A DNA stretch of 64,000 nt, from the NCBI GenBank assembly GCA_029961055.1, contig JASBVM010000047.1, forward strand, positions 1 through 64,000. Direction: 5' to 3'. A program made the translations under genes and the position numbers. The notes below the pieces were generated by a model. That model had not been told where the DNA came from, did no database searches, and saw only the letters and a program-made list of their open reading frames with translations. Position 1 is the first letter of the stretch. Every line of letters begins with the position of its first letter. Origin of the DNA: Bacillota bacterium (lineage in GTDB: Bacteria; Bacillota; Sulfobacillia; JAIMAT01). Positions 46,134 to 55,713 of this stretch are shown piece after piece.

Positions 46134-46176
46134 TGTGACCGCGATCACGGCGCCGGCACCGCTGCCCGCCTACGCT
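46134..46176 (+). promoter_or_regulatory. Crp/Fnr-type site A and promoter of the NO-related operon
   Basis: TGTGACCGCGATCACG (46134-46149, centre 46141.5) contains the palindrome GTGACCGCGATCAC. A -10-like TACGCT begins at 46171, 29.5 bp from the centre, which places the site at about -41.5, the class II activator position. There is no good -35, as expected for an activated promoter. Sites B and C show the same geometry. Confidence 0.7.
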
Positions 46177-46246
46177 GGGGCCGCGGGCTGGCGCGGCGCA
46201 GACCGCCGCCTCCGGCGGTCGCGAGCGCCGGCGCCCGCGGAGGAAG

Positions 46247-47611
46247 GTGGCCCGGATGCCTTCGACCCGCGTCTCGCGCTGGACCCCCCGCTTCTTCGCG
46301 GTGGCGTTGCTCTGCTTCCTCGCCGCCCAGTCCTGGATGGCGGCGGGGTTGACCTGGCCCTTCCGGTCGCCGGGCTCGCCGGGGACGCTGGTGGCGGTCC
46401 ACCTCCTCACCGTGGGTTGGCTGACCACGCTGATGCTGGGCGCACTCCACCAGTTCGTGCCGGTCATCACCGCCGGCGCGCCCGCGAGCGAGCGGGCGGC
46501 CGGATGGACGCTGGCGCTGGTGGCGGGCGGGCTCGCCCTGATGCTGACCGGCTTCCTGGCCTACGGGGCGGGCGCCTGGCCGCTGGCGCTGGCGCTGCCG
46601 CCGGGCGGCCTGTGGGTGGCGGCGGGCGCCTGGCTCGCCGCCGCGCAGCTCGGCCGGACGCTGGCGTCGGCGCGGCCGCTGCCGCTGCCCGCCCGGTACG
46701 TGGCGGGCGGCCTTCTCTTCCTCGTGCTGGTGCCTGCGCTGGGGGCGGCGCTGGCGCTGGCGGTGGTGGTGCCCGAGCGGGTCGGCCTCGCCGGGGCGGG
46801 CTTCCTGCTGGGGAGGGGGCTGTCGCTCCACCTGCTCGCGGGGCTGGGCGGCTGGTTCACGCTCACCGCCATGGGCGTCGCGCTCAAGCTGCTCAGCATG
46901 TTCGCCCTGGCGCCGGAGGATCGCGGCCGCCTGGGAGCCTGGGCCTTCGGCCTGGCGGCCGCGGGTCTGGGCCTCGCCTGGCTCTTCGGCTGGGGAGGCG
47001 CGGGGTGGGCGGCGCCGGCCGGGCTGGGCCAGGCGGCGGCTGCCGCGGGCGTGGCGCTCTACCTGGCCGACATGGTCCGGCTCTACGGGCAACGGCGGCG
47101 GAAGCGGCTCGAGCTCAACGCCGCCTTCGCCGCCTGGGCCCTGGCGGCACTGGGCCTGGAGCTCCTGGCGCTGGTGCTGGCGCGCCTCGCCGGCGGGCTG
47201 GCGGAGTGGGCGCCGGTGCTGGTCCAGCTGGCTCTCTTCGGATGGCTCTCCGGTCTCGGGCTCAGCCAGCTGGTCAAGATCGTCCCCTTCCTCACCTGGG
47301 TCGAGCGCTACGGGCCGCTGATGGGCCGCGCCCCGGTCCCCCGCGTGCAGGACCTGCTGGACGAGGGGCGGGCACGGCCGTGGCTCGTCGCCTACTTCGC
47401 CGCGGCGGCGACCGGGGTGGCGGCGGCCGCCGGCATCGTGGCGAGCGGCGGGGCGGGGGCCGCGGCCGCCGGCTGGTCGGCCGTCTGGAGACTGGCCGTG
47501 CTGGGCCAGCTCGTGGGCACGGCCGGCCTGGGGCGGGAGCTCTGGCAGGTCCGCCGGGCCCGGCCGGCGACATCGGCGACCGCGCCCTCGATGGTGGCAG
47601 GACGGCGGTGA
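46247..47611 (+). CDS. heme-copper-oxidase subunit I-like 12-TM membrane protein
   Basis: A 454-residue protein of about 12 membrane helices. Helix 2 reads VHLLTVGWLTTLMLGALHQFVPVI (His52, His68), matching the HxxxxxxGW...GAxxxxVP helix of heme-copper oxidases and NO reductases, and a second copy of the pattern occurs at HLLAGLGGWFTLTAMGVALKLL (His195). A later QLVKIVPFLTWVERYG ends the core. The HPE-V/Y and HH copper-B motifs of true oxidases are absent, so it is not a standard terminal oxidase. It may bind heme and handle NO, or be a NnrS-like protein. A paralogue is encoded at 53831-55201. It opens the operon behind Crp/Fnr site A, with DUF2249, DUF59 and hemerythrin genes. Confidence 0.7.
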   Translation: MARMPSTRVSRWTPRFFAVALLCFLAAQSWMAAGLTWPFRSPGSPGTLVAVHLLTVGWLTTLMLGALHQFVPVITAGAPASERAAGWTLALVAGGLALMLTGFLAYGAGAWPLALALPPGGLWVAAGAWLAAAQLGRTLASARPLPLPARYVAGGLLFLVLVPALGAALALAVVVPERVGLAGAGFLLGRGLSLHLLAGLGGWFTLTAMGVALKLLSMFALAPEDRGRLGAWAFGLAAAGLGLAWLFGWGGAGWAAPAGLGQAAAAAGVALYLADMVRLYGQRRRKRLELNAAFAAWALAALGLELLALVLARLAGGLAEWAPVLVQLALFGWLSGLGLSQLVKIVPFLTWVERYGPLMGRAPVPRVQDLLDEGRARPWLVAYFAAAATGVAAAAGIVASGGAGAAAAGWSAVWRLAVLGQLVGTAGLGRELWQVRRARPATSATAPSMVAGRR

Positions 47612-47688
47612 GCGGTGCCCGGTCCGCCCGGCCGCCGGGGACCGCGGGTGGGGAGGGCGGGAGGAGATCGACGACGGGAGGGGTCGAC

Positions 47689-48249
47689 ATGCGGGAAGGC
47701 AGGACGGCGGCGGTCTCGCTCCGGACGCTGGACGTGCGCGACGACCTGCGGGCGGGGCGGGAGCCGCTGGGGCGGATCCTCGAGGCGGTGCGGCAGCTGC
47801 GCGAAGGCGAGGGGCTCCGGCTCCTGGCCACCTTCGAACCGCTGCCCCTCTACCGGGTGCTGGAAGCCAGGGGGTTCGAGCACCGGGCGCGCCGCCTGGA
47901 GGGCGGCGACTGGGAGGTGACCTTCCTGCCCCGGGAGGGCGGCCGGGGTGGCGGGGCCGCGGACACGGCCGTCGGCCGCGCCGGTGGAGGTGACGGAGAG
48001 GGCGGGGCGTGGCCGGAACCGGTTCGCTTCCTGGACAACCGCGGGCTGGAACCGCCCGAGCCCATGATCCGGATCCTCCAGACGCTGGAGGAGATGGCGC
48101 CGGGCGAGGTGCTGGAGGCGGTCAACGAGCGCGAGCCGGTCTTCCTCTACCCGGAGCTGGAGGCGCGGGGTCACGCCATCCGGAGCGAGAGGCGGCCGGA
48201 CGGCGTCCACCTCCGGATCCGGCGGGGGCAGGCGGGAGAGGGGAGGTGA
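47689..48249 (+). CDS. tandem DUF2249 protein
   Basis: A 186-residue cytoplasmic protein made of two DUF2249 domains: LDVRDDLRAGREPLGRILEAV...DWEVTFLP (residues 15-80) and LDNRGLEPPEPMIRILQTLEEM...VHLRI (about 112-180). The domains are joined by a Gly-rich linker. DUF2249 is a small TusA-like alpha/beta domain repeatedly found beside hemerythrin, DUF59 and NO-reductase or nitrite-reductase genes; its biochemistry is not settled. Neither domain shows the TusA catalytic Cys. The ATG follows GGGAGGGG. The next gene starts 5 bp after the stop. Confidence 0.82.
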   Translation: MREGRTAAVSLRTLDVRDDLRAGREPLGRILEAVRQLREGEGLRLLATFEPLPLYRVLEARGFEHRARRLEGGDWEVTFLPREGGRGGGAADTAVGRAGGGDGEGGAWPEPVRFLDNRGLEPPEPMIRILQTLEEMAPGEVLEAVNEREPVFLYPELEARGHAIRSERRPDGVHLRIRRGQAGEGR

Positions 48250-48254
48250 GGCGC

Positions 48255-48596
48255 GTGCGCGAGGAAGATCGCGGGCAGCCGGCGCCCGCCGCCGACCCGG
48301 GCCTGGAACCGCGGCTCTGGGAGGCGCTGCGCGAGGTCTTCGATCCCGAGCTCGGCTACAACGTGGTCGACCTGGGCCTGATCTACGGCCTCGAGGTGGA
48401 GGGCGGCCGCGTCCGCGTGGTGATGACCATGACCACCCCCGGCTGCCCGGCCGGCGACATGCTGGAGGAAGGCGTCCGCCAGCGCCTCCTCCAGCTCCCC
48501 GGCGTCGAGCGGGTGGAGGTCCGCCTGGTCTGGTCGCCACCCTGGACGCCCGGGATGATGAGCGACGATGCCAAGCGCTACTTCGGCTTCGCCTGA
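48255..48596 (+). CDS. DUF59 (MIP18/PaaD-type) iron-sulfur assembly-related protein
   Basis: A 113-residue protein with a DUF59 domain: LREVFDPELGYNVVDLGLIYGLEVEGGRVRVVMTMTTPGCPAGDML. It includes the conserved DPE, the DLG-Y turn and the reactive Cys in TTPGCP. The C-terminus VRLVWSPPWTPGMMSDDAKRYFGF is typical of the PaaD/SufT-like subgroup. These proteins help deliver or mature Fe-S clusters. The GTG is chosen with GGAGGT 7 nt upstream. In this operon it may repair or load Fe-S proteins exposed to NO, such as the ferredoxin encoded at 51328. Confidence 0.9.
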   Translation: MREEDRGQPAPAADPGLEPRLWEALREVFDPELGYNVVDLGLIYGLEVEGGRVRVVMTMTTPGCPAGDMLEEGVRQRLLQLPGVERVEVRLVWSPPWTPGMMSDDAKRYFGFA

Positions 48597-48609
48597 GGGG
48601 GTGGCGGCG

Positions 48610-48908
48610 ATGGAGAAGCGCGAGGCGCTCCAGGCGCTGGCGGGGCTGAGGGCGGGCGGGTTCGATCCCCTGGCGGAGGGGCGCTGGAGACGGAGGTCCT
48701 GGCGCGGATCCCCTTCGAAGAACCCTCGCGCCAGGGGCGGCGGGCCGGCCTCTTCCCGCCCCGGAGCCCGGCGGGCTCGGCGTACGCGGAGCTGGCCCGG
48801 CGGGTGGCCAGGGAGCTGGGGCTGGAGGGGGAGGCGGTCCCCCTGGCTGCGGGCAGGCCCGCGGGGAAGGAGACCGAGAAGGAAGAGGAAGCGGGGGATG
48901 GGGCATGA
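48610..48908 (+). pseudogene. hypothetical protein with a one-base frameshift in a G-run
   Basis: Reading from ATG 48610 gives MEKREALQALAGLRAGGFDPLAEG, then turns to Arg-rich nonsense. The neighbouring frame continues naturally as ALETEVLARIPFEEPSRQ, then a Pro/Gly segment, then AYAELARRVARELGLEGEAVPLAA and on to a TGA that overlaps the next ATG. Adding one G to the run at 48678-48681 would join them into a protein of about 99 residues. The preserved stop/start overlap shows the gene belonged to the operon. It is either a sequencing or assembly error or a recent mutation. The family is not recognised; the LARIPFEEP stretch only loosely resembles the end of P-loop ATPases. Confidence 0.6.
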
Positions 48909-49645
48909 CGGAGAGCGTTCGCCCCGAGGTCGCCGGGGCGGGGCGGGAGCCGGCGCCCGACCCGAACCGGGCGGCCCGGGAGCAGATCGTCCGGCACCAT
49001 GCGCAGCTCCTGGCGGGGCTGGAGCGCCGGACCCGGGAGCTGGTGACGGCGCCGGAGGACGGGTGGGCGGCGGCGCGGCAGGCGCTGCTCGACTACGTCG
49101 ACGCCGAGCTCCTGCCGCACGCGCGCGGGGAGGAGAGAACGCTCTACCGGCAGGCGGTGAGGCTTCCGGAGCTGGCGCTGCTCGTCGACTCGCTCTTCGG
49201 AGAGCACCGTCGCATCGCCGAGCTGCGGGAGGCGGTGAAGGGCGCCTCCTCCCCCCTGGAGGCGTCGCCCGCCGCCGGCGGCCTGCTGGAGATCTTCCGC
49301 CTGCACGCCGAGAAGGAGAACCGCTACGTCGTCTCGGCCCTGGCGGCCGACGCGGGCACCGACCTGGAGGCGCTCCTGGGCCGGCTCCACGAGCGGAGCC
49401 AGCCGGGGGAGGGGCTGCTCGACGTCCGCCACCTGCCGCCCGCCGAGCGGCACCGCCGGATCTTCGCCACCTGGCAGGAGCTCGAACCGGGGGATTCCTT
49501 CCTCCTCGTCAACGACCACGATCCCGCGCCGCTCCACTACCAGCTGGCCGCCGAGCAGCCGGGCCGCTTCAGCTGGGAGGTGCTCGAGGCGGGTCCGGCG
49601 GTCTGGCGGGTGCGGATCGGCCGGCGGGCGGAGACGGGCAGGTGA
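48905..49645 (+). CDS. hemerythrin-like protein with C-terminal DUF2249 domain
   Basis: A 246-residue cytoplasmic protein. Residues 20-160 are a hemerythrin four-helix bundle with candidate iron ligands: HH at 35-36, His/Glu in ELLPHARGEERTLY, His in FGEHRRIAELR, and His/Glu in FRLHAEKENRYV. These are the normal di-iron set of HHE proteins. Residues 172-243 are a DUF2249 domain (LDVRHLPPAERHRRIFATWQEL...PAVWRVRIG). Hemerythrin-DUF2249 fusions bind O2 or NO and, as in YtfE/ScdA relatives, can repair nitrosylated iron centres. The ATG overlaps the preceding TGA. The context of nitrite reduction supports an NO-binding role. Confidence 0.87.
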   Translation: MTESVRPEVAGAGREPAPDPNRAAREQIVRHHAQLLAGLERRTRELVTAPEDGWAAARQALLDYVDAELLPHARGEERTLYRQAVRLPELALLVDSLFGEHRRIAELREAVKGASSPLEASPAAGGLLEIFRLHAEKENRYVVSALAADAGTDLEALLGRLHERSQPGEGLLDVRHLPPAERHRRIFATWQELEPGDSFLLVNDHDPAPLHYQLAAEQPGRFSWEVLEAGPAVWRVRIGRRAETGR

Positions 49646-49654
49646 CGGGGCGCG

Positions 49655-50155
49655 GTGTCGGTCCCCTGGGCGCGGTGGGTCCTCTTCCTTCACCTGGCGG
49701 CGGCCATCTTCTGGATCGGCGAGATGCTGACGCTCTCGCTCATCCTGGTCCCCGCCTCGCGCAAGCTGGGCGGCGCCGCCGAGCGCGCGCGGCTCTTCCA
49801 GGCGGTCGGCCGCCTCTCGCGGCCCTGGATGCTCGGCGCCCTGGCGGTGCTGATCGCGACCGGCCTCGGCAACCTGGCCTTCCGCGGCGTGGGCGGGACA
49901 GAGCTGCTCGCGCCCTCGTTCTACGCTTCCGGCTTCGGGCGGCTCCTCGGCCTGAAACTCGGGCTGGTGACGGTCATCCTGCTCCTCACCCTCCTGCACG
50001 ACCGGGTCAGCCTGCGCTCGGCCGGCGGCCTCCCGGCCGCCCCGGGCGATGCGGGGGCGGCCTGGCCCAGCCGGCTCAGCGCCTGGCTCGGCCGCCTCAA
50101 CCTGCTCGCCAGCCTTGCGGCCGCCTATGTCGGCCTCCGACTCCTGACGGGCTGA
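49655..50155 (+). CDS. CopD-like four-helix membrane protein
   Basis: A 166-residue membrane protein with four or five helices: VLFLHLAAAIFWIGEMLTLSLILVP, PWMLGALAVLIATGLGNLAF, LGLKLGLVTVILLLTLLHDRVS and LNLLASLAAAYVGLRLL. The LHLAAAIFWIG...LVP start and the LKLGLV...HD segment match the short CopD/DUF4149-like family, often found with nitrite and NO reductases. A heme- or copper-related role is possible (His13 and the His in LLHDR are candidate ligands). The GTG start lies 9 bp after the hemerythrin gene, so it ends the operon driven from site A. Confidence 0.72.
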   Translation: MSVPWARWVLFLHLAAAIFWIGEMLTLSLILVPASRKLGGAAERARLFQAVGRLSRPWMLGALAVLIATGLGNLAFRGVGGTELLAPSFYASGFGRLLGLKLGLVTVILLLTLLHDRVSLRSAGGLPAAPGDAGAAWPSRLSAWLGRLNLLASLAAAYVGLRLLTG

Positions 50156-50203
50156 GGACGACCGCCTCCACCTTCCCGGGGGAGGGGGCGCTGAGCGGCC
50201 GGG

Positions 50204-50246
50204 CGTGACCGCGGTCACAGAGGGGTGGGCGGCCTCGCCCTAGCCT
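50204..50246 (+). promoter_or_regulatory. Crp/Fnr-type site B and promoter of the nitrite reductase gene
   Basis: CGTGACCGCGGTCACA (50204-50219, centre 50211.5) is a perfect 14-bp palindrome at its core. TAGCCT starts at 50241, 29.5 bp from the centre, the same distance as in sites A and C, placing activation near -41.5 and the start near 50253, just before the ribosome site. Confidence 0.72.
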
Positions 50247-50268
50247 TGTCAGCGGGGAGGGGAGGATC

Positions 50269-51321
50269 GTGCAGGGGAAGCCGACCGTACGCTGGAAGCT
50301 GCTGTCGACCGCCGCCCTCCTGGCCGCGGTGGCGTTCGTCGCCGGCTGCAGCTCCGCCGCATCGCCGGCGGGGGGCGGAGGGGAGCCTGCGGCGACGAAG
50401 GGCCCGCAGGCCGCGGCGCAGGGGCCGCAGGCCGCCGCCGAGGCCGGACGGATGCTCACCGGGCGCTGCCCGAGCCCGAAGCCGGTGCCCCTGGCCTTCC
50501 GGCGCCAGGGGTCGCACGTCTGGGTGGAGCTGGTGGCGGAGCCGGCCACCCTGCCCATCGCGCCCGACCGCTGCTACCGGGCCTGGACCTTCGACGGGCA
50601 GGTGCCCGGGCCGGTCATCCGCCTGCGCCAGGGCGACCTCGTCACCTTCACGCTGGTCAACCGCGACCCCGAGATGGCCCACTCCATCGACTTCCACGCC
50701 GCGCGGACGCCCTGGAGCGTCAACTACCAGCCGGTCCTGCCCGGTCAACGCCTCACCTTCACCTTCCAGGCCGCCGACCCGGGGGTCTTCCTCTACCACT
50801 GCGGTGTGGCGCCCGCCATCCAGCACCTGGCCAACGGCATGTACGGCGCCGTCATCGTCGATCCCAAGGAAGGGCGCCCGCCGGCGCGCGAGTTCGTCCT
50901 GGTGGAGGGCGAGTGGTACCGCTCGGACGACCCCGACGCGCTGCCGACGCAGGCGCCCGTCTACACCGTCTTCAACGGCTATGCCGACCGCTACCTCCGC
51001 CACCCGCTCGCGGCGCGGCCGGGCGAGCGCGTCCGCTTCTACGTGGTCAACGCGGGGCCGAGCCGGTTCGCCTACTTCCACGTGATCGGCGCGATCTTCG
51101 ACCGGGTCGAGACGGACGGGAATCCGGCCAACCTCCTCCGGGGCGTCGCCGGCGCCGTGATCGGGCCGGGCGGTGCCGCCGTCTTCGAGACCCGCTTCCC
51201 GGAGGCGGGCAAGTACCTCTTCGTCAACCATGCCTTTGCGGATGCGGCGCGCGGCGCGACGGGCGAGATCGACGTGCGCCCGCAGGCGCCCGCGCAGCCG
51301 CTCATGCCCATGGAGCCGTGA
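50269..51321 (+). CDS. nirK: copper-containing nitrite reductase (lipoprotein)
   Basis: A 350-residue two-domain multicopper protein that reduces nitrite to nitric oxide. All key residues are in place with the spacing of characterised NirK: type 1 copper His138, Cys178, His186, Met191; type 2 copper His143, His177, His321; catalytic Asp141 and His271. The signal sequence ends in the lipobox VAFVAGC (Cys27), so it is tethered to the outer face of the membrane, as in Gram-positive NirK. An Ala/Pro/Gln linker (30-60) precedes the cupredoxins. The GTG has GGGGAGGGGAGG upstream. It lies directly behind Crp/Fnr site B and is followed by a ferredoxin gene. Its product NO explains the neighbouring NO-related genes. 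Confidence 0.93.
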   Translation: MQGKPTVRWKLLSTAALLAAVAFVAGCSSAASPAGGGGEPAATKGPQAAAQGPQAAAEAGRMLTGRCPSPKPVPLAFRRQGSHVWVELVAEPATLPIAPDRCYRAWTFDGQVPGPVIRLRQGDLVTFTLVNRDPEMAHSIDFHAARTPWSVNYQPVLPGQRLTFTFQAADPGVFLYHCGVAPAIQHLANGMYGAVIVDPKEGRPPAREFVLVEGEWYRSDDPDALPTQAPVYTVFNGYADRYLRHPLAARPGERVRFYVVNAGPSRFAYFHVIGAIFDRVETDGNPANLLRGVAGAVIGPGGAAVFETRFPEAGKYLFVNHAFADAARGATGEIDVRPQAPAQPLMPMEP

Positions 51322-51327
51322 GCCGCG

Positions 51328-51573
51328 ATGCGCGTCACCGTCGACCAGGAGATCTGCATCGGCTGCCCGTTCTGCGAGTCGGTCTGCATCGAGCTCTTCC
51401 GCGTGGACGGGGGTCTCGCCTTCGTCCTCCTCGACCCCGTCCCCCCGGAGCTCGAGGCGTGCGCCCGGGAGGCGGCGGAGGCCTGCCCGGTCGGGTGCAT
51501 CGCGCTCCACGCCGACGACGAGCCGGTCGAGCCCCGCCTCCTGGCCTCGATCCTGCGGGAGCCCGCCCCCTGA
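51328..51573 (+). CDS. single-cluster ferredoxin
   Basis: An 81-residue ferredoxin: CIGCPFCESVC (Cys10, 13, 16, 20) and the distal CPVGC. The CxxCxxC...CP pattern fits one [4Fe-4S] or [3Fe-4S] cluster, with an extra Cys. The acidic surface is typical of an electron carrier. It starts 6 bp after nirK and is probably co-transcribed; it could supply electrons to the radical SAM protein or another redox partner, since the lipoprotein NirK is on the other side of the membrane. Confidence 0.9.
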   Translation: MRVTVDQEICIGCPFCESVCIELFRVDGGLAFVLLDPVPPELEACAREAAEACPVGCIALHADDEPVEPRLLASILREPAP

Positions 51574-51683
51574 GGCAGGGGCGCCGGGCGATCCGGCCGG
51601 ACTCGCCCGGCGCCGGTCGCGAGGCTCTCGCCGGGCCGTGCCGGCGCTCCCGGCCGTGGTAGCCTTGCGGGAGGGGGAGGTCC

Positions 51684-52388
51684 ATGCCCAGCGACGGCCG
51701 TGTCTCCGAGCTGCTGGCGCGGAGCCCGATCTTCACCGGCCTGGATCCGGGCTCCCTCGCGGCCATCGGCGCGCTGCTCCGCCGCCGGCAGCTGGCGCCC
51801 TCCCAGGTGCTCTTCGAACAGGGCGAGCCCGTCACCGACCTCTTCGTCATCGAGAGCGGCCTGATCAAAGCCTTCGTCCTGACGCCGGGAGGGCGGCAGC
51901 AGACCATCAACCTGCTGGGCGCGGGCGAGGTCGTGCCCCACGTGGGCTTCCTGGAAGGAAGCACCTATCCCGCCACCGCCACCGCCCTCGAGCCGACCAC
52001 CCTCTGGGCGCTCGGGCGCGACCCGCTGATGGCGCTCCTCCGCCGGGACGCCCAGCTCGCCATCCGCCTCCTGGAGATCACCGCCCGGCGGCTGGCCGAG
52101 CTCCAGCACCGGCTCCAGGAGACCGCGCTGGGCGACCTCCGCCAGCGCGTGGCCTATGCGCTGGTCCGCCTGGCGAGCGAGCACGGGCGCGGCGAGGGCC
52201 GCTGGCGGACGCTCCCGGCGGGGATCACGCACCAGGAGATCGCCAACCTGGCGGGGGTCAGCCGCGAGAGCGTCAGCCGCATGATGAGCCGCTTCCAGCG
52301 GAACGGCTGGGTGCGCGAGGGAGCGGAAGGCCATCGCCTGGACGTGGCGGCGCTCGCCCGGGAGATGGAGGGGTTCGACCGCCGCTGA
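51684..52388 (+). CDS. Crp/Fnr-family transcription regulator
   Basis: A 234-residue regulator. The cyclic-nucleotide-binding-like beta-roll covers residues 12-125 (SPIFTGLDPGSL, FEQGEPVTDLFVIESGLIKAF, NLLGAGEVVPHVGFLEGS), then the dimer helix, then the C-terminal HTH ITHQEIANLAGVSRESVSRMMSRF. There is no cysteine, so it is not an Fe-S FNR. The cNMP phosphate-binding RxS motif is not apparent either, which leaves heme-based (DNR-like) NO sensing as a reasonable inference. The recognition helix SRESVSRMMSRF resembles that of CRP, in line with the TGTGA half-sites at sites A-C. It lies inside the regulon it probably controls; TAGCCT (51660-51665) is its likely -10. Confidence 0.92.
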   Translation: MPSDGRVSELLARSPIFTGLDPGSLAAIGALLRRRQLAPSQVLFEQGEPVTDLFVIESGLIKAFVLTPGGRQQTINLLGAGEVVPHVGFLEGSTYPATATALEPTTLWALGRDPLMALLRRDAQLAIRLLEITARRLAELQHRLQETALGDLRQRVAYALVRLASEHGRGEGRWRTLPAGITHQEIANLAGVSRESVSRMMSRFQRNGWVREGAEGHRLDVAALAREMEGFDRR

Positions 52389-52464
52389 GGGAGGGCCGTC
52401 CTTCGGCCCCTCGCCCGGTCGCGCTAGGGCGGACACCCGATTGCCTCCACTCGGATCCTTGTTC

Positions 52465-52507
52465 TGTGAGCCCTCTCACTTCGCGCGTCGCTCTCCTCGC
52501 CTACGGT
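52465..52507 (+). promoter_or_regulatory. Crp/Fnr-type site C and promoter of the radical SAM operon
   Basis: TGTGAGCCCTCTCACT (52465-52480, centre 52472.5) has both TGTGA and TCAC half-sites. TACGGT starts at 52502, again 29.5 bp from the centre. The leader to the radical SAM ATG is about 110 nt and holds no gene. Confidence 0.68.
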
Positions 52508-52621: not shown

Positions 52622-53767
52622 ATGCCGGCCCTGGCATTCGATCAGAAGCCCTTCATCGTCATCTGGGAGACGACGCGTGCCTGCCAGCTGGCCTGCCGCC
52701 ACTGCCGGGCGCGGGCGGTGCGCCGGCGCCACCCCGGCGAGCTGAGCACCGAAGAGGCCTTCGGCCTCGTCGACCAGCTGGTGGAGATGGACCGGCCGCT
52801 CTTCGTGCTGACAGGCGGCGACCCCATGGAGCGCGACGACCTGGTGGAGATCGTCCGCTACGCCAGCGCGCGGGGGCTCGTCACCTCCATCACGCCCAGC
52901 GCCACGCCCAGGGTGACCTTCGAGCGCATGCGGGCGTTGCGCGAGGCCGGTCTCGCCCACTGGGCGTTCAGCCTGGACGGCTCCACCCCGGAGATCCACG
53001 ACCGCTTCCGCGGGTTCCCCGGGACCTTCGCCCTGACCATGGAGAGAATCGGCTGGCTTCGGCAGCTCGGGATCCCCCTGCAGATCAACACCACCGTCAG
53101 CCGTTTCAACGTGGACGACCTGCCGGCCATGGCGGAGCTGGTGGAACGGCTGGGGGCGGTCCGCTGGAGCCTCTTCTTCCTGATCCCCACCGGCCGCGCG
53201 CGCCTGGGCGACCTGCTCTCGCCCGAACAGCACGAGCAGGTCCTGCTCTGGCTCGACGACCTGAGCCGGCAGGTGCCGTATGACATCAAGACCACCGAGG
53301 GGCCCCAGATCCGCCGCATCCGGGCGATGCGCGAGGCGGCGGCGACGGGAGGAGGGTCGCCGTCCGCGGAGGACGCCGAGGTCGTCGAGACGGCGACGGA
53401 GGCCGGTCGGAGGGAGGCGGGGGGCGTCCCGCGCAGCCGGCGGCCGGTCTGGGACGGAAACGGCATCCTCTTCGTCTCCCACGTGGGGGAGGTGTACCCG
53501 TCCGGCTTCCTCCCCGTGGTCGTGGGCAGCGTGCGCGAGACGCCCCTGGCCCGGCTCTACCAGGGGTCGCCCGTCCTGCAGGCGCTGCGCGACCCCTCCC
53601 GGTACCGAGGGAAGTGCGGCTACTGCCCGTTCCGCCGGCTCTGCGGCGGCTCGCGGGCACGCGCCTATGCCGTGACGGGAGAGTACCTGGAGGCCGATCC
53701 CTTCTGCACCTACATTCCCGACCCGCGCGCCGCCGCGCGGGAAGGGACCGGGGCTAGGGCGGGCTGA
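52622..53767 (+). CDS. radical SAM/SPASM protein
   Basis: A 381-residue enzyme. The radical SAM cluster motif is CQLACRHC (Cys21, 25, 28), followed by the GGDPM SAM-binding motif and a TIM-barrel of the usual length. The C-terminal SPASM-like region holds CGYCPFRRLCGGSRARAY...DPFCTY, with at least four Cys for an auxiliary [4Fe-4S] cluster. It resembles the TIGR04053/NirJ-AhbD-type group that acts in heme or peptide modification. In a nitrite-reduction cluster a tetrapyrrole role is a natural suggestion, but no other heme d1 genes are present. A Ser/Glu/Thr insert around 245-265 is not conserved. It has GGGAGGAGGCGG before the ATG. It leads the operon behind site C. Confidence 0.85.
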   Translation: MPALAFDQKPFIVIWETTRACQLACRHCRARAVRRRHPGELSTEEAFGLVDQLVEMDRPLFVLTGGDPMERDDLVEIVRYASARGLVTSITPSATPRVTFERMRALREAGLAHWAFSLDGSTPEIHDRFRGFPGTFALTMERIGWLRQLGIPLQINTTVSRFNVDDLPAMAELVERLGAVRWSLFFLIPTGRARLGDLLSPEQHEQVLLWLDDLSRQVPYDIKTTEGPQIRRIRAMREAAATGGGSPSAEDAEVVETATEAGRREAGGVPRSRRPVWDGNGILFVSHVGEVYPSGFLPVVVGSVRETPLARLYQGSPVLQALRDPSRYRGKCGYCPFRRLCGGSRARAYAVTGEYLEADPFCTYIPDPRAAAREGTGARAG

Positions 53768-53830
53768 GCCGCGGCTCCGGCCGGCGCCGTTCTCCCAGCG
53801 GATGTGGATCGAGAAAGGGGGGAAGGCCGG

Positions 53831-55201
53831 ATGCAGCCGCTGACCCTGGAGCGGCGCCCGGAGGCGGCTCTGCCCCTCGGCCAGATGGCCCTGGCCACGG
53901 CCGGCCTGGCGCTCTTCTCGCTCGCCGTCGGCCTGCTCGGGCCGGACCTGTTCGGGCCGGACGGCTGGCGAACCCCGGCGGCGCTCCTGACGGTTCACCT
54001 GGCGACGCTCGCCTGGTTGACGCCCTTGATGATGGGCGCGCTCTACCAGCTCGTCCCCGTGGTGCTCCACCTGCCCCTGGCGCTGCCGGGCTGGGCCGTT
54101 CCGGCCCGGCGTGTCTACACGCTGGGGCTGGTGCTCTTTCTCGCGGGCCTGGCCGCATGGAGCGGCGTGCCGGGCTTCGGCTGGCTGGCCGCCCGGCCCT
54201 CGGCCGCCTGGATCAGCCTGGCCGCCGGAGGAAGCCTCCTCGCCCTGGCGATCCTCGTCTTCCTGGTGCAGATGGGCTTCACGCTGGCCGGCCTGCGGCA
54301 GGCCGGCTGGAGCCTGCAGGCGGCGGCGGTGCTGGCGGCCCTTCTGGCGCTGGCGGCTGTCGCCGGCTGGGGGCTGACGCTCGCCCTCAACCTGCGGCTC
54401 GGCTTCCTGGGGGCCGGGGTGGAGAAGCAGCTGGCGATCCACGTGACGCTGGGGCTGGGCGGGTGGTTCGGCAGCCTGGCCATGGGCGTCGGCTACCAGC
54501 TGATCCCCATGTTTGCGCCGACGCGCCACCTGGAGCTGCCGGAGGCCGGCTGGGTGCTGGGCGCTTGGCTGCTCGGCCTCGCCGGCGTCCTGGGCGGCCT
54601 CTGGCTTGCGCCTGCGAGCGTACGCTGGCTTCTTCTCCTCCCCGGGGCCTCCATGGTCGCCTGGGCCGGCGACGTCGTGCGCATCGTCCGCCGCCGCAGC
54701 CGCTCCCAGCCCATGCCCCTGGTCACCCGCTTCAGCCTGGCGGCCGCCCTGACCCTGGGCGCGGCCGCCCTCTGGGCGATGGCCGCCGCCTGGGGTCGGG
54801 CTCCGGGCGCGCCGGTGGCGCTGGGCGGCTTCCTGGCGCTGGCCGGTTACACGCTCCTGGGGGTGGGTCAGATGTTCAAGATCGTCCCCTTCGTCCTCTG
54901 GCAGCGCCTCTACCTGGCGGCAGGAAGCGTGCGCCCCTCCCCGGCGGCCCTCGCCTCGCCGCCACCCCCGCTCAAGACCGGTCTCTGGCTTCCCGAGCCT
55001 CCTGCGCAGCTGGCCCTGCCGCTCTTCCTGGTCGCCCTGGGGCTGGTCGCGGCGGGCGCGGCCGGCGGCCTCCCCGCCCTCCTCGTCCCGGGCTGCGTCC
55101 TCTGGGGGCTGGCCGGCCTGCTCTCGACCGGCCTGATCGGCTGGGCCTACCGGGCGGCGGCCCGCTCCGCCCGGGCGCTGGAGGGGTCCCGGCTGCGGTG
55201 A
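53831..55201 (+). CDS. heme-copper-oxidase subunit I-like 12-TM membrane protein (paralogue)
   Basis: A 456-residue membrane protein, paralogous to the one at 46247-47611. The shared helices are VHLATLAWLTPLMMGALYQLVPVV (His56, with Tyr72 where the paralogue has His68), HVTLGLGGWFGSLAMGVGYQLIPMF (His204) and QMFKIVPFVLWQRLY. A copper-B His set is again missing. The pair looks like an internally duplicated, reduced relative of NO-reductase/oxidase subunit I. The ATG has GGGGGGAAGG upstream, 63 bp after the radical SAM gene; the end overlaps the JAMM gene by 4 bp. Being in the same regulon as NirK, NO reduction, NO sensing or heme handling are candidate roles. Confidence 0.7.
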   Translation: MQPLTLERRPEAALPLGQMALATAGLALFSLAVGLLGPDLFGPDGWRTPAALLTVHLATLAWLTPLMMGALYQLVPVVLHLPLALPGWAVPARRVYTLGLVLFLAGLAAWSGVPGFGWLAARPSAAWISLAAGGSLLALAILVFLVQMGFTLAGLRQAGWSLQAAAVLAALLALAAVAGWGLTLALNLRLGFLGAGVEKQLAIHVTLGLGGWFGSLAMGVGYQLIPMFAPTRHLELPEAGWVLGAWLLGLAGVLGGLWLAPASVRWLLLLPGASMVAWAGDVVRIVRRRSRSQPMPLVTRFSLAAALTLGAAALWAMAAAWGRAPGAPVALGGFLALAGYTLLGVGQMFKIVPFVLWQRLYLAAGSVRPSPAALASPPPPLKTGLWLPEPPAQLALPLFLVALGLVAAGAAGGLPALLVPGCVLWGLAGLLSTGLIGWAYRAAARSARALEGSRLR

Positions 55202-55713
55202 TATCCTCCCGGCCGGGGGGGCGGACGTTGGAAGCGACCGGCGGGGAGCCGGCGCGGGGCGGGGACCGGCTCGAACTTCCCCGGGGGCTGGTGCGGGAGA
55301 TGCTGGCCTACGCACGGAGCCAGCTCCCCAACGAGGCGTGCGGTCTCCTGGGCGGCCGGGCCGGCCGGGCCGAGCGCTTCTATCCGGCCACGAACCAGGA
55401 AGCCAGCCCCACCGCCTACTCCATCCCGGCGGAGGAACTCCTCCGTATCCTCACGAGCCTCGAAGGCGAGCAGCTCGAGCTGGTCGCCGTCTTCCACTCG
55501 CACCCGCGCGGTCGCGCCTATCCCTCGCCCGTCGACATCCGCCAGGCGTACTACCCGGAGGCCGTCTACCTGATCGCCTCGCTGGCCGGACCGGAGCCGG
55601 AGCTGCGCGGCTACCGCATCCGGCGCGGACGGGCGGAGAGGGTCGCCCTGGCGTTCCCGGGCGAAGGGAGCGCCTGGCGAGGGCGGCCCGAGGGGGCAAC
55701 CGGGCGACTTTAG
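55198..55713 (+). CDS. JAMM/MPN-type metallopeptidase
   Basis: A 171-residue protein with a complete JAMM zinc motif: Glu in LPNEACGLLGG, then AVFHSHPRGRAYPSPVDI, which supplies HxHx7Sx2D. In bacteria this Mec/RadC-like stand-alone form cleaves C-terminal extensions from ubiquitin-like sulfur carriers or acts in Mo-cofactor, thiamine or cysteine pathways. A partner such as ThiS/MoaD is not in the window. The GTG start overlaps the preceding stop; a TTG ten codons later (55228) with GGGGGG in front is the alternative. It ends the operon from site C. The C-terminal 25 residues are unconserved. Confidence 0.87.
   Translation: MISSRPGGRTLEATGGEPARGGDRLELPRGLVREMLAYARSQLPNEACGLLGGRAGRAERFYPATNQEASPTAYSIPAEELLRILTSLEGEQLELVAVFHSHPRGRAYPSPVDIRQAYYPEAVYLIASLAGPEPELRGYRIRRGRAERVALAFPGEGSAWRGRPEGATGRL

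Follow-up and report, generated by a model that had tools for sequence, protein, structure and literature searches.

Do three palindromes of the Crp/Fnr type, each in front of a different operon, belong to one regulon, and to what does it respond? The question is raised by positions 46,134 to 52,507 of a 64,000-nucleotide stretch of a GC-rich, uncultured member of the Bacillota (GTDB lineage Bacillota; Sulfobacillia; JAIMAT01), namely positions 1 to 64,000 of the forward strand of contig JASBVM010000047.1 in assembly GCA_029961055.1; this whole stretch is called the window. The palindromes precede an operon encoding a membrane protein (MP1) and DUF2249 proteins, the copper nitrite reductase gene nirK, and a radical SAM operon that includes a paralogous membrane protein (MP2). 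The initial annotation had taken them for a local nitrite/nitric oxide (NO) regulon. Judged from the sequences, the three operons and norB probably form a class II activator regulon, co-controlled by one regulator, with NO or nitrite as the most likely cue.

All three palindromes and their -10-like hexamers were found by direct reading where they had been annotated (Table 1), and each hexamer begins 29.5 bp from the centre of its palindrome. A -35-like hexamer was looked for at all three promoters and is present at none. This arrangement, with 29.5 bp to the -10 element and no -35 element at three promoters, is that of a class II CRP-dependent promoter and places the sites at -41.5 relative to the predicted start; class II sites of E. 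coli Crp are centred at -41.5 (PMC5957442). Since TANNNT occurs at only 0.1% of the plus-strand positions in the window, the offset shared by three sites is not a matter of chance. Site 1 is followed by the genes for MP1, the DUF2249/TusA-like protein, the DUF59 protein, an ApbC remnant, the hemerythrin-DUF2249 protein and the CopD-like protein, in this order. Behind site 2 are nirK and a ferredoxin gene, and behind site 3 the genes for the radical SAM protein (TIGR04053), MP2 and the JAMM protein.

The genome of the window (G000; 2.28 Mb in 54 contigs, 96% complete) was scanned for TGTGA-N6-TCAC by pattern searches, as had been suggested. Seven exact sites were obtained, three of them inside these 6.4 kb, where the density of the remaining four predicts 0.011 (P about 2e-7). 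Those four, on contigs C9, C17, C23 and C31, were ruled out for lack of a -10 element at the correct spacing. For two sister species of the same genus, G001 (recorded as Bacillota bacterium Bu54) and G002, the pattern TGTGA-N6-TCAC-N22-TANNNT was used with zero mismatches beyond the permitted degeneracy. In G001 it marks the MP1 operon, MP2 and, on another contig, the radical SAM gene; in G002 it marks the MP1 operon and, on another contig, norB (product NorB, PF22085 5e-59). No other gene is marked in either genome. Both sisters have thus retained the site in front of the MP1-DUF2249 operon together with its spacing. The radical SAM gene lies off the contig of the MP1 operon in both and has kept its site in both; in G002, where it is on yet another contig, TGTGACCGCGGTCACG stands upstream with a TAGGCT -10 hexamer at 30.5 bp. 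A site retained at a relocated gene is strong evidence of function. A near-perfect degenerate match upstream of a DUF488 gene in G000 (C9:12102) was rejected, as the G002 orthologue has no site. Leaving aside the one non-conserved DUF488 site, all matches of the exact pattern within the genus fall at the MP1 operon, nirK, norB, the radical SAM gene or MP2. As a rule, TGTGA-N6-TCAC with TANNNT 29.5 bp from its centre is specific enough for predicting further members; norB was found in this way.

On a wider scale, 51 loci with the MP family were surveyed, and sites were counted with at most one mismatch. The Bacillota loci hold 120 site orientations, and in 26 of these TANNNT lies exactly 29.5 bp away, compared with a background of 1.1 per offset; the loci from other phyla gave 0 of 20 at this distance. 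Independent tests started from norB and nirK. Upstream sites are present at 12 of 19 norB loci (2.05 expected), 5 of them correctly spaced (0.15 expected), and at 13 of 27 nirK loci (3.14 expected), 8 of them correctly spaced (0.66 expected). Genes behind spaced sites in the Bacillota MP loci include DUF2249-MP operons, nirK and hemerythrin-DUF2249 genes, as well as genes for an unknown protein of 112 residues, a cupin-like protein and, named from their translations, the iron-sulfur subunit of fumarate reductase/succinate dehydrogenase, heme O synthase and ferredoxin. The subunit gene and the heme O synthase gene have such sites in Sulfobacillus-type relatives, and so do peroxiredoxin-like genes. 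That palindromes and hexamers merely coincide by chance might be argued from the shortness of the motifs, and the DUF488 match demonstrates that degenerate matches arise. Set against the clustering of the sites, their conservation at relocated genes and the sharp class-wide peak at 29.5 bp, this explanation is hardly credible and, at the level of sequence conservation, is already refuted. Sites, spacing, absence of a -35 element, conservation in sisters and class, and gene identities are all read from the sequence.

The 112-residue protein is conserved in Sulfobacillus-type genomes, where its gene (L148:12485-12820; also L126, L127, L133, L138 and L141) has correctly spaced Crp/Fnr sites; it has no Pfam or NCBIfam match.

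Co-regulation by identical class II-type promoters, as first proposed, is strongly supported: the sisters keep the sites at moved genes, and the architecture recurs class-wide. The link drawn between the unknown proteins and nitrite/NO metabolism is strongly supported as well, with the same architecture in front of nirK, norB and the DUF2249/membrane-protein operons. The word "local" is too narrow, because the sisters have unlinked members on other contigs, namely the radical SAM gene in G001 as well as G002, and norB in G002.

The regulator is encoded between sites 2 and 3 and, as its translation confirms, has no cysteine. It belongs to the Crp/Fnr superfamily (cNMP_binding PF00027 9e-21, HTH_Crp_2 PF13545 1e-15, PF00325 8e-10) and is the sole full-length member in G000, matching only itself genome-wide. 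Its recognition helix has equivalents of R180/E181, which correlate with G3/A6 of TGTGA operators (PMC1274295). By these residues the helix predicts sites such as those observed, and the combination with a TGTGA-N6-TCACA operator is that of the HcpR1 type. N-terminal cysteines for the [4Fe-4S] cluster of FNR are absent. A CRP responding to cyclic adenosine monophosphate (cAMP), i.e., a global catabolite-type activator controlling these genes incidentally, would use the same motif, which is the E. coli CRP consensus, and the closest solved structures are Mycobacterium tuberculosis CRP and GlxR (Z 24.5 to GlxR). Such a CRP is nevertheless improbable: sites are very few in the genome, the score on the CRP equivalog model is 51.6 bits against a cut-off of 266, and the cAMP contacts E72, R82 and S83 are not conserved, with H86 at the Glu position and TYPAT in place of ERSA, in an alignment with CRP, DNR, FNR and CooA reference sequences.

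The motif PH(86)VGFLEGG-YPATA is common to the closest relatives of the regulator, with His86 invariant across this PH clade, and is absent from the Sulfobacillus-type regulators. We hypothesize, by analogy, that His86 lies near the region of the CooA heme ligand. Homologous regulators are encoded within 5 kb of norB in seven genomes (G005, G012, G014, G027, G028, G044, G056), of nirK in G024, G043 and G055 plus this genus, and of an MP gene in seven (G008, G022, G023, G041, G042, G049, G054). Autoregulation was considered for the window regulator and rejected: a TAGCCT hexamer is present at 51660, yet no palindrome lies at the correct distance. The gene may have its own constitutive promoter. 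The gap between the ferredoxin and regulator genes (51574-51660) contains a perfect inverted repeat of high GC content, GGCGCCGGGC...GCCCGGCGCC, followed by this hexamer.

Taken as a mechanism, the three sites would be operators of one activator-controlled promoter type. Bound there, the regulator would start transcription at the predicted positions and co-activate the MP1-DUF2249-DUF59-hemerythrin operon, nirK-ferredoxin and the radical SAM-MP2-JAMM operon; on the evidence of the sister genomes, norB would belong to the regulon too. The most likely cue would be NO itself, or nitrite acting through NO; its sensing would involve neither cAMP nor an iron-sulfur cluster held by cysteines, but possibly a heme bound near His86. 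We infer the nitrite/NO response from the target genes alone. Several points weigh against this reading. In G000, norB (C41:1, L115) runs off the contig start, so its promoter lies beyond the contig end. In both sisters nirK is located downstream of hemerythrin-DUF2249, in the direction of the MP1 operon, and no site of its own was found there within two mismatches, i.e., the nirK site exists only in this species. The genomes of the class-wide tests are related, which makes their P values optimistic, although the loci span several families. Finally, the same promoter type precedes genes without a clear NO role in Sulfobacillus-type relatives, whose regulators lack the PH motif.

Because of these non-NO targets and PH-less regulators, the regulator may respond to oxygen or redox, or to a broader anaerobic signal. 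The regulator would then control the same promoters and sense oxygen limitation or the redox/electron-acceptor state, with the nitrite/NO genes as part of an anaerobic regulon, in keeping with the spaced sites of related Bacillota before genes for the fumarate reductase/succinate dehydrogenase subunit, heme O synthase, peroxiredoxin-like proteins and ferredoxin. We regard this as possible but doubtful, since the exact pattern at genus level is confined, bar the DUF488 site, to the MP1 operon, MP2, radical SAM gene, nirK and norB, and since the regulator falls in the distinct PH-motif clade and has no cysteines for an FNR-type cluster.

For the preferred reading, a nitrogen-oxide regulon, known systems offer likenesses. 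DNR of Pseudomonas aeruginosa also has a Crp/Fnr fold without an FNR-type cluster, and its sensor domain contains a comparable Y-x-ATA stretch. The recognition helix of DNR is PETFSR and its motif of the TTGAT type, unlike SRESVSR and TGTGA of the window regulator. The closest functional analogue is HcpR1 of Desulfovibrio desulfuricans, a Crp/Fnr protein that has the same TGTGA-N6-TCACA operator and controls nitrogen-oxide genes (PMC5701242, PMC1274295); HcpR1 binds heme (PMC5701242). HcpR differs in its targets (hcp/frdX, nap and nrf, as opposed to nirK, norB, DUF2249 and oxidase-fold proteins) and HcpR1 in its sensor-domain motif; the likeness is one of function. DnrT of Thermus thermophilus, a member of the Crp family, likewise lacks the cysteine motif of FNR and activates genes of nitrogen-oxide respiration; it drives the DUF2249 proteins DrpA/DrpB, as DUF2249 genes would be members here. 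It differs in working with DnrS and in controlling nar, nor and drp genes (PMC5748679, PMC6282519). Unlike DrpA/DrpB, the DUF2249 proteins here have oxidase-fold membrane proteins and nirK as their partners. In the denitrification clusters of Haloferax mediterranei, DUF2249 genes adjoin nirK/nor, are induced in denitrification and share a promoter motif, but the motif is archaeal, CGAAYATDKTYG, and the regulators are others (PMC11218638). By analogy, the regulon would resemble nitrogen-oxide regulons of the HcpR1/DnrT type in function.

Searches of MP1 and MP2 against Pfam matched no model; the G001 orthologue of MP2 matches COX1 at 2.5e-4, under the cut-off. The MP1 structure model (predicted local distance difference test, pLDDT, 82; predicted template modelling score, pTM, 0.85) has the oxidase fold with 12 transmembrane helices (TM) and superposes about 400 residues on the catalytic subunit of heme-copper oxidases and NorB at Z 31 (31.4 to the cbb3 oxidase CcoN and 30.7 to NorB). 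Unlike in these enzymes, only two of the six metal-ligand His are candidates for conservation: across 28 diverse family members, invariance is limited to H52 in the second helix and H195 in the sixth, and of the six oxidase ligands (TM2, TM6, two in TM7, two in TM10) those of TM7 and TM10 are gone in MP1/MP2. When MP1 was compared with NorB and COX1 by hhalign, to establish from sequence profiles whether it is an oxidase, no significant similarity was obtained; its kinship to oxidases hence rests on the fold. MP genes occur in 27 of 28 nirK genomes of the class compared with 82 of 154 genomes overall (Fisher P 6e-8; 11 of 12 families). Co-occurrence with norB in the class shows no association (10 of 18, P 0.52). 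In most loci the MP gene adjoins a DUF2249 gene, also in Campylobacterota, Deltaproteobacteria, Planctomycetota and Dehalococcoidia.

The remaining genes are given in Table 1. The ApbC/NUBPL-type NTPase gene, a remnant in the window, is intact in G001 and G002, the G001 copy matching PF10609 at 3e-73. The CopD-like gene, which lies here between hemerythrin-DUF2249 and nirK, was not detected in the G001 or G002 loci. The NirK translation contains the type 1 and type 2 copper ligand motifs HSIDFH, HC-x8-H-x4-M, FHVIG and VNH. A second TIGR04053-like radical SAM paralogue is encoded elsewhere in G000 (C4:96011-97078), with 61% identity to the window copy.

Table 1. Positions of promoter elements and genes in the window.
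Feature	Position	Strand	Evidence or remark
Crp/Fnr site 1, TGTGACCGCGATCACG	46134..46149	+	read directly; ahead of MP1-DUF2249 operon; kept in G001 and G002
-10-like hexamer TACGCT	46171..46176	+	start 29.5 bp from site 1 centre
MP1, 12-TM membrane protein of heme-copper-oxidase fold	46247..47611	+	structure model; invariant His H52, H195
DUF2249 + DUF2249/TusA-like two-domain protein	47689..48249	+	PF10006 6e-36, PF01206 7e-10
DUF59/PaaD-SufT-like iron-sulfur assembly protein	48255..48596	+	PF01883 5e-22
ApbC/NUBPL-type iron-sulfur P-loop NTPase remnant	48612..48906	+	about residues 27-302 deleted, frame shifted
Hemerythrin-like domain + DUF2249	48905..49645	+	PF01814 7e-10, PF10006 7e-29
CopD-like small membrane protein	49655..50155	+	PF05425 4e-5, under cut-off
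Crp/Fnr site 2, CGTGACCGCGGTCACA	50204..50219	+	read directly; ahead of nirK
-10-like hexamer TAGCCT	50241..50246	+	start 29.5 bp from site 2 centre
nirK, copper nitrite reductase, divergent	50269..51321	+	TIGR02376 1e-49, 169.5 bits, under 296.3 cut-off
4Fe-4S ferredoxin	51328..51573	+	PF13370 3e-13; downstream of nirK
Crp/Fnr regulator	51684..52388	+	recognition helix SRESVSR; sensor motif PH(86)VGFLEG...YPATA; zero Cys
Crp/Fnr site 3, TGTGAGCCCTCTCACT	52465..52480	+	read directly; ahead of radical SAM operon; unlinked G001 and G002 orthologues also have sites
-10-like hexamer TACGGT	52502..52507	+	start 29.5 bp from site 3 centre
Radical SAM/SPASM protein, TIGR04053 family (AhbD/NirJ-like)	52622..53767	+	TIGR04053 6e-141, 469.9 bits, over 395 cut-off
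MP2, MP1 paralogue	53804..55201	+	alignment to MP1
JAMM/Prok-JAB metalloprotease-like protein	55228..55713	+	PF14464 1.8e-20

A bolder reading joins two proposals: the PH-motif Crp/Fnr proteins would form a class of heme-based NO sensors not described before, and their main targets, the MP1/MP2 family, which almost always occurs together with DUF2249, would have a remodelled heme-copper-oxidase fold whose two-His site serves nitrite reductase by handling NO or copper. MP1/MP2 would then represent a novel type of nitrogen-oxide membrane protein that occurs in several phyla. We consider this speculative and rather unlikely in its entirety. The regulon itself is testable and lies in a barely studied bacterial class. 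It would provide a functional context for the DUF2249 proteins, on which hardly any literature exists, and for an unnamed family of oxidase-fold membrane proteins that tracks nirK.

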